64,000 nucleotides of DNA from Leuconostocaceae bacterium ESL0723 (GTDB lineage Bacteria > Bacillota > Bacilli > Lactobacillales > Lactobacillaceae), in assembly GCA_029392055.1 (NCBI GenBank), contig CP113928.1:1238501-1302500 (forward strand), written 5' to 3'. A program made the position numbers and the translations under genes. Each line of letters begins with the position of its first letter. The stretch's first letter is position 1. The notes beneath the pieces are model-generated. The model was not told where the DNA came from. It ran no database searches and saw nothing but the letters and a program-made list of their open reading frames with translations. Shown piece by piece: positions 48,990-53,940 of this stretch.

Positions 48990-51110
48990 TTAATCATGTT
49001 TTTCATCACGACGGTCGTCGTGGTGGCCGTGGCCCTTACGCTTATCCTGTTCATCGCGATGACTACGTTCTTCACGTTGTTCAGGTTTAGCTGGCTTTGG
49101 CGGAAGTGGCACTTCGTTCTTAATAAAGAGCTGACGCAACTTAGGCGCCTTCTTGTGCTCAATAAAGAGTGGCACAATTTCTTCGATGGTGTCCGAAAGA
49201 CGGAGCCGGTAGAAATAACGCAGGTGGACTGAGTGCGACTGCAACCAAATCCGACCACCAATCAGGAGCCGGTCCCAAGATGAAATCGTTGAAACCGTCT
49301 TCAAATCGGTGTAGTAGTTATTGGTCAAAACGTACTTAAAGTCACCGATGCTCCGGTTCTTATCCAGGCCGTAGCGAATCTTTTGAGGCTCCAGGGCACC
49401 TTGTTTAACCAAGTTCTTAGCAATCTGATAAACAAAGTACTCAACCTGTGGATCAACCTTGAAGCCAAGGTTTAAGACCACGCGGACCATGTTCTGACTG
49501 CCCATCAGGTCAACTGAATACGATTTCTCATAAGGGTCAATCGATTCCTTAATGGTGACAAACCAGTAAACCTTGGCCCGCTTTGGCCGGGCACCCAGCA
49601 GTGAATAAATCACCGACTTTTTAATCTGATAGTCGTCATGGACATTAACGATATAAACCAGGTTGGTAGCCATCATGAAGACGCTGGAATCCTGGGACAG
49701 CTGCATGAGCTGCTTACGGTACTTCTTCAGGGACAGGTAATCGTTGTTAAAGGACAGGGCTTCACGCCGCTTATTACCGTAGTACCAGAAGACCATGACT
49801 GACAGAATCATCAGCATCAACAGCAGAGTGAAGTATCCACCATGGATGAACTTGCCCAGGCTGGCAATCAGGAAGAGGGTCTCGATGGAGCCAAAAACGG
49901 TAGCGAAGAGGGCCGCCAGGAAGAGGCCGACCTTGGACCGGATAAACTCAAAGAGCAAGATGGTGGTCATCAGCATAGTAATCGTAATGGCCAAACCATA
50001 AGCAGATTCCATGTTGGCGGAGGTCTGGAAAAAGAGCACCACAATCACGCCGGCCAGGAACAGGAGCCAGTTCACAAAGGAAATGTACATCTGACCCCGG
50101 AATTCGTTAGGATAGGTAATCCGCAGCCGTGGCATGATTTTCAAAGAAATGGCCTCTGAAACCAGGGTGAAGGCCCCGGTAATCAAAGCCTGGGAGGCAA
50201 TCACGGCCGCAACCGTACTCAAAATGACCCCAACCAGACGCCACTGATTAGGCAAGATGTCGAAGAAAAGGTTCAGGTTGGTACCACGGGCGTTGTTCAT
50301 AATCGCCCAGGCCCCCTGGCCCATGTAGTTGAGCATCAGGGCCGTGTAGACAAAGGGCCAGCTCAGGTAAATGTTCTTCTTCCCGACGTGCCCCATGTCT
50401 GAATACAGCGCTTCGGCACCGGTCGTCGCTAGGAATATATTACCCAAAATAAAGATGCCAAGCTCGTTATCTGGACTAAATAACGTTTGAATGGCATAAA
50501 CCGGCGAAATGGCCTTTAAAATTTCGGGATAATGGAAAACCTGCAACAAGCCAAAGAAGCCGATAAAGGTAAACCAGAGCAGCATCAGCGGGCCGAACAT
50601 CTTACCGATTTTCGTAGTCCCCTGCCGTTGGAAGGCAAAGACGGCTAGCAAAATGACGAGGACCACCGGCACCACAAAATCAATCCCCGACGGGAAGGCC
50701 ACCCAACCAAAGTGCTGCCCTTCCAGTCCTTCAACGGCTGAAGTGACCGTCACAGCTGGTGTCAGGGCACCGTCGGCCAGCAGGGCCGAGCCACCAATCA
50801 TGGCCGGTAGGATCAGCCATTTCATCTTACTATTGCGGACCTTGCTGTAGAGTGAGAAGATTCCACCTTCACCGTGGTTATCGGCTTGCAGGGCAATCAA
50901 AACGTACTTAACCGTGGTGATTAGCATCAGGGTCCAAAAGACCAGCGAAACCGCACCAATGACCAGGTTTTTCAGGTTGTCGGTATGAATATTACCGGCA
51001 ATGATGGCGTTCATCGTATACAGTGGTGATGTTCCGATGTCACCGTAGACAATGCCTAAGGCAATTAGAAATCCTGCATACTTGAGCTTTGACTTCCGTG
51101 AAGTAGTCAT
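48990..51110 (-). CDS. kup: Potassium uptake protein Kup
   Basis: The 706-residue protein has 12 predicted helices followed by a cytosolic C-terminal domain of about 250 residues. Family signatures are ALGIVYGDIGTSPLYT (residues 17-32), ADNHGEGGIFSLYS and LLADGALTPAVTVTSAVEGLE. It mediates potassium uptake with protons. GGGAGGG precedes the ATG. The last 30 residues are an unusual tail of His, Asp, Arg and Lys (GHGHHDDRRDEKHD) beyond the usual end. Some lactic acid bacterial Kup proteins are inhibited by c-di-AMP; a site cannot be read here. Confidence 0.95.
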   Translation of the reverse strand: MTTSRKSKLKYAGFLIALGIVYGDIGTSPLYTMNAIIAGNIHTDNLKNLVIGAVSLVFWTLMLITTVKYVLIALQADNHGEGGIFSLYSKVRNSKMKWLILPAMIGGSALLADGALTPAVTVTSAVEGLEGQHFGWVAFPSGIDFVVPVVLVILLAVFAFQRQGTTKIGKMFGPLMLLWFTFIGFFGLLQVFHYPEILKAISPVYAIQTLFSPDNELGIFILGNIFLATTGAEALYSDMGHVGKKNIYLSWPFVYTALMLNYMGQGAWAIMNNARGTNLNLFFDILPNQWRLVGVILSTVAAVIASQALITGAFTLVSEAISLKIMPRLRITYPNEFRGQMYISFVNWLLFLAGVIVVLFFQTSANMESAYGLAITITMLMTTILLFEFIRSKVGLFLAALFATVFGSIETLFLIASLGKFIHGGYFTLLLMLMILSVMVFWYYGNKRREALSFNNDYLSLKKYRKQLMQLSQDSSVFMMATNLVYIVNVHDDYQIKKSVIYSLLGARPKRAKVYWFVTIKESIDPYEKSYSVDLMGSQNMVRVVLNLGFKVDPQVEYFVYQIAKNLVKQGALEPQKIRYGLDKNRSIGDFKYVLTNNYYTDLKTVSTISSWDRLLIGGRIWLQSHSVHLRYFYRLRLSDTIEEIVPLFIEHKKAPKLRQLFIKNEVPLPPKPAKPEQREERSHRDEQDKRKGHGHHDDRRDEKHD

Positions 51111-51158
51111 TTTTTCGCCCTCCCTCAGTTAGAGCAAAGTTTAACGCTCAGAGGGGGA

Positions 51159-51197
51159 ATATACAAGGAAATTGTATATATACTCGCGTTCCGAGTA
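51159..51197. promoter_or_regulatory. Two adjacent dyads upstream of kup
   Basis: ATATACAA-N5-TTGTATAT (51159-51179) is a perfect 8-bp dyad, and TACTCG-N5-CGAGTA follows at once (51181-51197). They lie 49-87 bp before the kup start and may be operators or leader hairpins. The rest of 51111-51336 is AT-rich and holds no gene. Confidence 0.4.
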
Positions 51198-51336
51198 CTC
51201 AAATATGGTCCTGGACACACCATCTACCTTGAATTAGTGAAAATTCATATGCACGCAATATTTCAATCATATAGAAACCATAAGAATCCAAAAATCACTT
51301 ACCTGATTTAAAACCATACTTTCAAGTGCAGTAGCC

Positions 51337-52797
51337 TCAATCCACATAATCCTGCTGAATGTATGCCAACCTGTCAACAAAATCTGGAAACAAATCTTTG
51401 CGATAATAATGATACTCACCTAATTTTGATGATAATTGAAATTCAATTTCGTCCATGATGCGAGAAGTAACTGCTCCCCCATCATGAATCTGTTCTAAAA
51501 ATTTCTCTAGGTTTTTGATTTCCTGCTGAATCAAATGTTCCAAATTTTCGATTAGATCTTGATTTCTAGCAAATTCTCCCTGACTTTCACGAATTAATTC
51601 CTTACTTTTATCAATCAAATCAGCACTTTTTGAAATTAATTTTTTTCGCTCCTTTGCCAACGAACGAATTCTCGGGTCTTTTTTACCCAAATCCGAATTT
51701 TCAATGTTACTATCTTCAGATATTCTTTTTTCCAAGGCTTCTTTAGCTTCCGCCGTTTGTAAAATTGACTTTTTAGTCCTTTCTGCTGATTTTTGATATG
51801 GTAGAATCGCTGCCTTTAATTTAACGAGATCTCTCTCTCGCTCACTAATTCTGTCCTCTATTACTGATTTCGAATATTCATAATCATACTTCAGTTCGAT
51901 AGTTATTCTCGGAATCTTCTCTATATTTCTTTTTTTCAAATCAAATAATTTATCGTAAAAGAAAAAAGATCCTTTTTGAGCGGCAATGCGCTTATTTATT
52001 TCAGTATGAAAAACTTTAGTAAATATATTGCATGTAGCGTCTTTATCTTCGTCTATAGCAAACATGTCCAGAGTCTTGGATCCGAACACACTAATTTCCA
52101 AGTCACTGTTGTCAGCAGAATTTTTTTTACCGATGACGTATCTTTTTTTATTGTCTAGCATAAAGAGCATTGCCACGAAAGGATTTTCCGTAATATCAAC
52201 CAAACTCGTTTTGAAACCGTAATGTTGTAAAACCCCTAATGCTGTAGCCCTTTTCTCTTTGTTTTCAAAATAAGAAAAGTACTTAATCTTTTCCGGATAA
52301 TCCTCAGCTAAAGATTTATAAAGATTCTCAAATTCATTGATAAATCGTGTGCCTGGAACTCTGAAAATGCCCGGTTTTAGAATCCAATTATTCTCCTGGC
52401 CCCTATAATAATTAAAACTTCTGGGTAATCGTCCCGATTCATCATTTTCTTGAAGGATAAAACGTTGAATCAACTCTTTGTATAAATAAAAAAGACTCCA
52501 ATCAAGCGTATTAGCCCGGTCTTTTATACCATTATTTATTTCGCGAATCACCTGTTCGGTGTATAAGTAATACGGATTGTCAACATCGCCATCACACTTC
52601 TCACATTCGAGTGGCCGTATGCGATAGTGTTCAGCATAATGATAAAAATCGTCCTCAACTGAGTTGTCAAACGGAAAAACAGCACGAATTGGAATAATAA
52701 TTTTAGTTTGATTAAACAATTTCGTGGAATTAAATTTTTTCTGAAGACTGGCATATTCAAATCGGTTGAAAATAAACTTGTCGAACATTTCACACAC
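51337..52797 (-). CDS. FRG-domain protein with long coiled coil
   Basis: The 486-residue protein carries an FRG domain: the signature YRGQENNWILKPGIFR at 131-146 and LQHYGFKTSLVDITENPFVAMLF at 190-212. It is followed by a long Lys/Glu-rich coiled coil (about 310-470). FRG domains have no settled activity. The start is either the GTG at 52797 or the ATG three codons later; neither has a strong ribosome site. It follows the ImmA-like gene by 17 bp, and both are visibly more AT-rich than the surrounding genes and use AT-rich codons, a sign of transfer. The pair sits against ssrA, a common integration site. A defence or toxin function is inference. Confidence 0.8.
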   Translation of the reverse strand: MCEMFDKFIFNRFEYASLQKKFNSTKLFNQTKIIIPIRAVFPFDNSVEDDFYHYAEHYRIRPLECEKCDGDVDNPYYLYTEQVIREINNGIKDRANTLDWSLFYLYKELIQRFILQENDESGRLPRSFNYYRGQENNWILKPGIFRVPGTRFINEFENLYKSLAEDYPEKIKYFSYFENKEKRATALGVLQHYGFKTSLVDITENPFVAMLFMLDNKKRYVIGKKNSADNSDLEISVFGSKTLDMFAIDEDKDATCNIFTKVFHTEINKRIAAQKGSFFFYDKLFDLKKRNIEKIPRITIELKYDYEYSKSVIEDRISERERDLVKLKAAILPYQKSAERTKKSILQTAEAKEALEKRISEDSNIENSDLGKKDPRIRSLAKERKKLISKSADLIDKSKELIRESQGEFARNQDLIENLEHLIQQEIKNLEKFLEQIHDGGAVTSRIMDEIEFQLSSKLGEYHYYRKDLFPDFVDRLAYIQQDYVD

Positions 52798-52814
52798 CCA
52801 CGCCGCTTAATGTA

Positions 52815-53396
52815 CTAATACCCTATGTTTTGTAATCTGAAGCGCATCGATTGAGCCGAGACGTTCATCAACATTGCAGTACCCATTACAAGTTCATCAG
52901 ACTGTCTCCAATCCACATTATTAACGTCCCAATTCTTCTGTTTTGCAATTGAATGAAGTGCGTCGTCCACAACTTTTTTAGGCATCAAAATCTCGGCAGC
53001 AAAATTATTAGCATCAACTTCATTTCTATCATTAAAAATTTTTTTAACGATTTCCTGAGTTTCCTGCCCGTACGGACTTAGTAACCTATTACTTATTCCA
53101 CTGCTATCGCCTTTGTGCTGCAGTAACGCGTGTCCCAATTCGTGTGCAATCGTAAACCGTTCTCTGAACACCGGCTCATTTTGATTAACCGTTATAGTTT
53201 TAGTACTCGAATTATATTCCCCGGACTTGTTGAAACCCTCCTCGGAAATCTGGATTCGAAGATTAGCAAATTCTACAAATTTATAGATGTCAACTTCATA
53301 TTGCTTTATCCAATGCTTTAAGTTGTAAATGCTGTCATCATGAAAGTACTTATCCAAAAATCCCCTAGAATACACTTCTCCAATTTTATAAGACAT
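52815..53396 (-). CDS. ImmA/IrrE-family metallopeptidase
   Basis: The 193-residue protein contains the zinc-protease motif AHELGH (His85, Glu86, His89) in RERFTIAHELGHALLQH and the downstream NEVDANNFAAEILMP segment with the likely third ligand, as in ImmA/IrrE (DUF955) proteases. Such enzymes usually cleave a partner repressor or regulator. No helix-turn-helix gene is adjacent; the downstream partner is the FRG protein. The ATG at 53396 has AGAAGGG upstream. It begins only 41 bp after the 3' end of tmRNA, with no terminator between, so it may be expressed by read-through from ssrA. Confidence 0.85.
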   Translation of the reverse strand: MSYKIGEVYSRGFLDKYFHDDSIYNLKHWIKQYEVDIYKFVEFANLRIQISEEGFNKSGEYNSSTKTITVNQNEPVFRERFTIAHELGHALLQHKGDSSGISNRLLSPYGQETQEIVKKIFNDRNEVDANNFAAEILMPKKVVDDALHSIAKQKNWDVNNVDWRQSDELVMGTAMLMNVSAQSMRFRLQNIGY

Positions 53397-53436
53397 CAGC
53401 AAAACCCTTCTCAAATTCATCATTTATCGCAACAAA

Positions 53437-53791
53437 TGGATCTGAGGGGAGTCGAACCCCTGTCCAGACCGTCCGCTACATCAGCGTCTACATTCATAGA
53501 ACTATCATTTAAAATTCATGATATTGTCCGCCATAGTCCCAGGCTTTCCAATACCACTAACCTGGTTAATTTGACCGTTCCCTAACAGGTGGATAGGGAA
53601 ACGGCGAGCTGGCTAATTATGGCCTAGCTCCAGCCGCCAGCTGCCGGAGTTAAGCTACGTATCACTGGTTTTTAGGCAGCGATTGCGTAAGAGTTATTGT
53701 TTTTTGCAGTTAAATGTCTGCCCGTTTAACGTCCGGACGACGGAATGCAGCCAATGCGCTAAACAGCCTGTCGAATTCCATAAACAGACCC
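53437..53791 (-). ncRNA. ssrA: Transfer-messenger RNA
   Basis: The 5' end GGGTCTG pairs with 3' CAGATCC (one G-U) as a seven-pair acceptor stem. The tRNA-like part has GGAATTCGACAGG and GGGGTTCGACTCCCC. The tag frame (53672-53707) reads GCA AAA AAC AAT AAC TCT TAC GCA ATC GCT GCC TAA, giving AKNNNSYAIAA. The CCA end is not encoded beyond the discriminator A. It rescues stalled ribosomes with SmpB, whose gene is not in the window. Confidence 0.95.
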
Positions 53792-53908: not shown

Positions 53909-53937
53909 AAAAAAGACCTGCACCGCAGGTCTTTTTC
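53909..53937 (-). terminator. Terminator of yisL
   Basis: AAAAAGACCTGC pairs with GCAGGTCTTTTT around ACC. Confidence 0.88.
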
Positions 53938-53940
53938 CTA

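Follow-up and report, generated by a model that had tools for sequence, protein, structure and literature searches.

The genome of Leuconostocaceae bacterium ESL0723 (1.43 Mb, one contig) carries a gene for an M78 (ImmA/IrrE-type) zinc protease next to an FRG-domain gene, and the two lie between ssrA and kup. What do these genes do together, and how did they come to be there? We analysed a 64,000-nucleotide stretch around them, here called the window, in which all the genes concerned are on the minus strand: ssrA (tmRNA) at 53437..53791, the protease gene at 52815..53396 (193 aa), the FRG-domain gene at 51337..52788, and at 48990..51110 a gene that we take to be the potassium transporter gene kup. 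The FRG protein has 483 aa when read from ATG 52788 and 486 aa from GTG 52797 (ORF 51337-52797). The mechanical ORF of the protease reaches 53423, but its start is most likely ATG 53396, because an SD-like GAGAAGG (recognised by eye) precedes this codon and the N-terminus then fits those of the homologues.

The original prediction described an AT-rich pair distinct in composition from its surroundings, and the numbers agree. The pair has a GC content of 35.2%, its 6-kb flanks one of 50.7%. When the whole 64-kb stretch was scanned in 2060-bp windows (100-bp steps), those with the lowest GC all fell over the pair. Lower GC in the pair than in its flanks recurred at all 10 loci measured out of the 14 pair loci described below, by only 1–3 points in two genomes (G313 and G043).

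The 100 relatives searched included a single genome of the same genus (G001), and a comparison with it defined the borders of the insert. The flanks were 93–96% identical by blastn, with a kup protein 98% identical, and homology broke off at 53436, a single nucleotide beyond ssrA, and on the other side at 51174, which is 64 nt short of kup. Between these breakpoints lies a variable interval of 2261 bp (51175..53435, no strand). The relative has 3614 bp of other DNA in this place (L082:2585-6198; 38.9% GC), encoding an ABC-type ATPase (assigned by eye), a DUF1430 protein and, on the other strand, lactococcin 972. Since different DNA lies between shared flanks in the two genomes, the ssrA–kup interval is a cargo-swapping site; neither of the two genomes showed an empty one. 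The proposed foreign composition and mobility of the pair are supported.

The narrower proposal, that ssrA served as the integration site, found no support. The junction does adjoin the ssrA 3′ end, yet we rejected site-specific integration: the insert consists of two genes only and has no integrase, a search of the window and the rest of its genome for a duplicate ssrA 3′ end (att copy; up to 3 mismatches) came up empty, and at the 13 other pair loci no tmRNA gene was found within stretches of 4 to 20 kb. Among the repeats sought around the insert, none fitted. On the strand of the pair, the stretch from ssrA to the protease gene showed no promoter-like or terminator-like site, and transcription may therefore run on from ssrA into the pair. 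The relative has a hairpin resembling an intrinsic terminator directly after ssrA (L082:2592-2611). Rfam searches around the pair matched tmRNA models only.

Two further features of this region were seen in passing. Another indel lies beside ssrA, where the relative has about 0.5 kb extra (L082:1569-2082) with a 161-aa ORF, between the upstream ORF and ssrA; this DNA is absent from the window at ~53937-53940. Directly upstream of kup, a minus-strand hairpin at 51108-51175 falls within DNA that the relative shares (z-score −2.2; no Rfam match).

Both proteins retain the hallmarks of their families. The protease matched Pfam Peptidase_M78 (PF06114) with 64.8 bits (cut-off 22), and its HELGH zinc-binding motif (residues 85–89; 53130..53144, minus strand) includes H85, E86 and H89, which together with E126, further along the chain, were invariant in an alignment of nine M78 rows. 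No HTH family was among the Pfam matches of the 193-aa protein, and no HTH gene adjoins the pair, whose neighbours are ssrA and kup; the protease is therefore, as first described, one that keeps HELGH and has no HTH partner. Its structure model had a pLDDT of 77.5, and Foldseek returned PprI/IrrE (8sln and 3dti) as the best fold matches, with CapP (7t5t) at rank 5. The FRG protein matched Pfam FRG (PF08867) with 57.5 bits (cut-off 25). It carries the family motifs [FY]RG and QHYG, and R129, G130, Q131 and Q188–G191 were invariant across seven aligned FRG rows. Its structure model reached a pLDDT of 56 with fold matches driven mostly by the coiled coil, and an FRG profile gave only chance-level matches to the sequences of solved structures. 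Because the fold model is poor, assignment to the ADP-ribosyltransferase (ART) superfamily rests on Pfam and the literature.

The long coiled coil ascribed to the FRG protein is present in the window copy, but it is peculiar to that copy. We placed a helical coiled-coil linker at about residues 303–435 (51484..51882, minus strand) from an AlphaFold2 model of low overall confidence, the alignment and linker lengths. Measured from the core to a C-terminal LFPDF block, the linker spans 179 residues here versus 47–95 in 11 homologues. The linker is a candidate cut site, but 6 of 25 distant FRG proteins have a C-terminal block of this kind as well, so it may be just part of the fold.

Conserved pairing of the two genes elsewhere, the absence of which the original prediction had named as grounds against it, proved to be the rule among close relatives of the FRG protein. 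A profile of three FRG sequences matched 37 of 301 genomes of the family, nine of them above 100 bits, and an M78 gene lay upstream of FRG in all nine. Searching 295 genomes of the order with a seven-row profile gave seven matches at an E-value of 1e-10; four were new, and each again had an M78 gene upstream. The same profile matched five of 398 genomes of the phylum, namely the window's own and four with short, distant FRG proteins. A viral contig from an FRG scan of viral sequences (L083) also carries the pair, and further viral FRG scans returned that contig only; a profile scan of genome contigs gave two loci. Thus an HTH-less M78 gene stood immediately upstream, on the same strand, at 14 of 14 close-FRG loci (nine genomes of the family, four more of the order Lactobacillales, hence 13 of the order, and the viral contig). 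The gaps between the genes are short, or the reading frames overlap, and the M78 proteins of the pairs are ~183–193 aa long.

Outside this clade the association was not seen. The pair's HMM recognised no M78 at any of 25 distant FRG loci, within flanks that were mostly 1.5 kb. These loci came from 21 of the 28 family genomes with only distant matches and from the four phylum genomes; two of them look like near-copies (L027 and L028) and three end at contig ends (L025, L030 and L036). From the other direction, neither HMM nor motif detected an FRG gene at any of 80 viral M78 loci fetched from at least 349 confirmed M78 matches; the viral matches listed do not include L083. FRG is therefore no usual neighbour of M78. 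The pair is also rare. By tblastn, the window FRG had no match in plasmid and phage collections and the L083 FRG none in plasmids, and the FRG of another genome (G463) gave one weak phage match at 23% coverage. Besides its pair, genome G239 holds a second FRG copy (L072, 113 bits), a 5′-truncated fragment without an M78 gene, preceded by an IS30-type transposase (assigned by eye); a third, weak match in that genome was left out of the counts. As a separate observation, one of the 25 distant FRG genes (L016:2396-3298) has a different M78-like protein ~0.5 kb upstream; this protein carries the motif HEYAH, scores 21.8 bits against M78 (cut-off 22) and gave, in addition, a sub-threshold match to the effector-associated domain EAD9.

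The two genes appear to have travelled together. Across the 12 intact pairs, pairwise distances of M78 and FRG correlated with r=0.90, and with r=0.54 once one near-duplicate was removed (permutation p=2e-4 both ways; rank correlation 0.47 for all 12); in a few of the rows compared, the first residue is shifted by one from the start codon. In a quick tree, a branch with SH-aLRT 98 separated the M78 proteins of the 12 pairs from 60 viral M78 proteins, picked by score from the 80 after removal of duplicates. Between two genomes (G344 and G384), dN/dS was 0.23 for M78 and 0.16 for FRG, calculated from 8 and 15 changes only. Between two others (G239 and G272), dN was 0.23 for M78 and 0.17 for FRG, with synonymous sites saturated or nearly so. 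Both of the latter genomes, which are related, have a broken FRG frame, each at another position (L010 and L014), and an open M78 frame.

Genomic company differed among the 14 pair loci. Defence or phage neighbours were recognised at seven (two Abi islands, four lysins and one prohead protease), suspected at two and not seen at five. Genes of known defence families accompany the pair in two genomes: AIPR/AbiU and AbiO/Nhi genes lie upstream of it in the same-genus relative, whose FRG is 37% identical to that of the window over the matched part, and in G313 the pair adjoins AbiH with AbiJ nearby. A GH25 lysin precedes the pair on the viral contig, amidase or CHAP lysins lie beside it at three loci (L167, L168 and L170), and a prohead protease is encoded in the DNA around it in G319 (L077). 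Elsewhere the pair sits inside an apparent ICE, recognised by eye (G152; TraG at 19.3 bits, below the cut-off of 25.8, and another protein tried without a Pfam match), or next to small genes of satellite-like appearance, again judged by eye (G151; one confirmed HTH gene and two others without a Pfam match). At the loci of the window, G043, G239, G272 and G421, where few neighbours were run against libraries, none was recognised as a defence or phage gene; the one run in G043 was a CYTH domain, and in G239 and G272 the pair lies between ordinary chromosomal genes. The suggested role in phage defence thus has some support from Abi company at 2 of 14 loci and from lysins or a prohead protease at 5 of 14, and no such company was recognised at 5 of 14, the window included.

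The separate parts are known to defence-gene catalogues. In PADLOC, the window FRG matched PDC-S15 (64.3 bits), and the M78 matched CapP as its best model (65.4 bits) and RmrA with 34.3 bits. RmrA, of the RosmerTA system, combines an HTH and an ImmA-like peptidase in one protein; the window protease shares the M78 domain but lacks the HTH, and RmrA profiles, which are 357–400 positions long, matched it only over an inner stretch at about positions 177–275. ImmA–ImmR and PprI(IrrE)–DdrO likewise have the M78 catalytic domain in common with it, PprI/IrrE being the best fold matches. As in CapH–CapP, a stand-alone M78 protease adjoins a candidate immune gene, but here there is no CapH or other HTH gene, the gene beside the protease encodes the candidate effector itself, and the protease has 193 aa rather than the 278–291 of the CapP chain. 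The FRG domain is shared with PDC-S15 candidates; what sets this FRG clade apart is the M78 partner present at all 14 of its loci. The window pair differs from PprI(IrrE)–DdrO in having no repressor partner. Its M78, like those of the other pairs, is also too short for the C-terminal GAF-like domain, which PprI requires for stimulation by ssDNA and not for cutting, according to the accessible text of PMC10904395.

Published work on the families, in the portions available, provides a frame for the pair. Once activated by ssDNA, the proteases CapP and PprI cleave CapH and DdrO, respectively (PMC13373217, PMC10904395). Frg domains have been placed in the ART superfamily, as a potential antiviral effector and possible NADase (PMC9503650). 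For Streptococcus mutans, the interactome of MecA, an adaptor of ClpCP, lists an FRG-domain protein (SMU_RS03730) enriched 10-fold (PMC10845952), possibly a hint of proteolytic control of FRG proteins. In the portion of that paper seen, 'ImmA' is the start of 'immature', and we discarded it as a paper on an FRG domain with ImmA. No description of FRG paired with ImmA, IrrE or M78 was found in the open-licence PMC literature, a body that leaves out preprints and most subscription journals, and the pair may be described elsewhere. The main text of the PADLOC server paper mentions neither FRG nor PDC-S15, and an eLife 2020 paper mentions neither Frg, M78 nor IrrE. With its parts already known to PADLOC as PDC-S15 and CapP, the pair as such looks undescribed.

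We consider the pair to be a mobile two-gene conflict module, most likely for abortive infection or superinfection exclusion, with the FRG protein as effector and the M78 as its dedicated post-translational controller (probability roughly 0.55). Behind this stand the conserved adjacency of the two genes and their joint inheritance, catalytic motifs that are intact, the mobility of the pair, and neighbours from defence systems or prophages at roughly half of the loci; because a conserved, mobile pair recurs beside prophage lysins and in defence islands, it looks like an undescribed two-part antiviral system. Cells under infection would be harmed by the FRG protein, whose domain published work places in the ART superfamily, probably through NAD+ consumption or ADP-ribosylation of a target. 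Encoded just before it, the M78 would control it post-translationally, most likely by cutting it as a specific partner, by analogy with CapP and PprI, and infection may be the trigger. Within this explanation we find it slightly more likely that the M78 activates the FRG protein upon infection than that it restrains it while the cell is healthy. Points against the explanation are the rarity of the system, the five loci where no defence or phage neighbour was recognised, and M78 proteins too short for the domain through which ssDNA stimulates PprI. Since Frg is also listed among signal-generating enzymes in the available text of PMC9503650, the FRG protein might act through a messenger that it synthesises instead of killing directly. 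That the M78 acts directly on an ART-superfamily FRG effector, a single proteolytic cut turning infection sensing into NAD+ consumption or ADP-ribosylation, is a proposal we make tentatively. If true, it would widen the role of the M78 family, whose members CapP and PprI act on DNA-binding repressors in the accounts seen, beyond the control of transcription to that of a killer protein itself, and FRG proteins, at present defence candidates in PADLOC, would gain a genetic partner and a testable switch.

Several of the same observations could be read in other ways. A gene order in which the regulator comes first, with the two genes close together or overlapping, and the position beside lysins would also suit a toxin–antitoxin pair, in which the M78 binds or degrades an FRG toxin and the module mainly stabilises mobile DNA, with phage defence secondary. 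The broken FRG frames beside open M78 frames at 2 of 14 loci (G239 and G272) and the 5′-truncated second copy in G239 would fit it too, but three lesions all falling in FRG are not significant, as FRG has about twice the length of M78; we regard this reading as unlikely.

Less likely still, the M78 might regulate an unlinked repressor in an ImmA-like role, with FRG as a separate passenger. The precedent is that CapP and PprI, in the sources as available, cut DNA-binding repressors; adjacency at 14 of 14 loci, correlated distances and the lack of an HTH gene next to the window pair make it improbable here. The copies between ordinary chromosomal genes in G239 and G272, and the five loci where no defence or phage neighbour was recognised, could point to horizontally acquired housekeeping or stress genes rather than defence, a view made very doubtful by 7 of the 14 loci, where the pair recurs beside lysins, with a prohead protease or in Abi islands. 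The place that the pair occupies in the same-genus relative is itself a defence hot spot, with side DNA 95% and 90% identical between the two genomes. In the window's genome, outside the window (L182:1747-7599), this site holds AbiJ, a D12 methyltransferase, a type II REase and Mrr instead.
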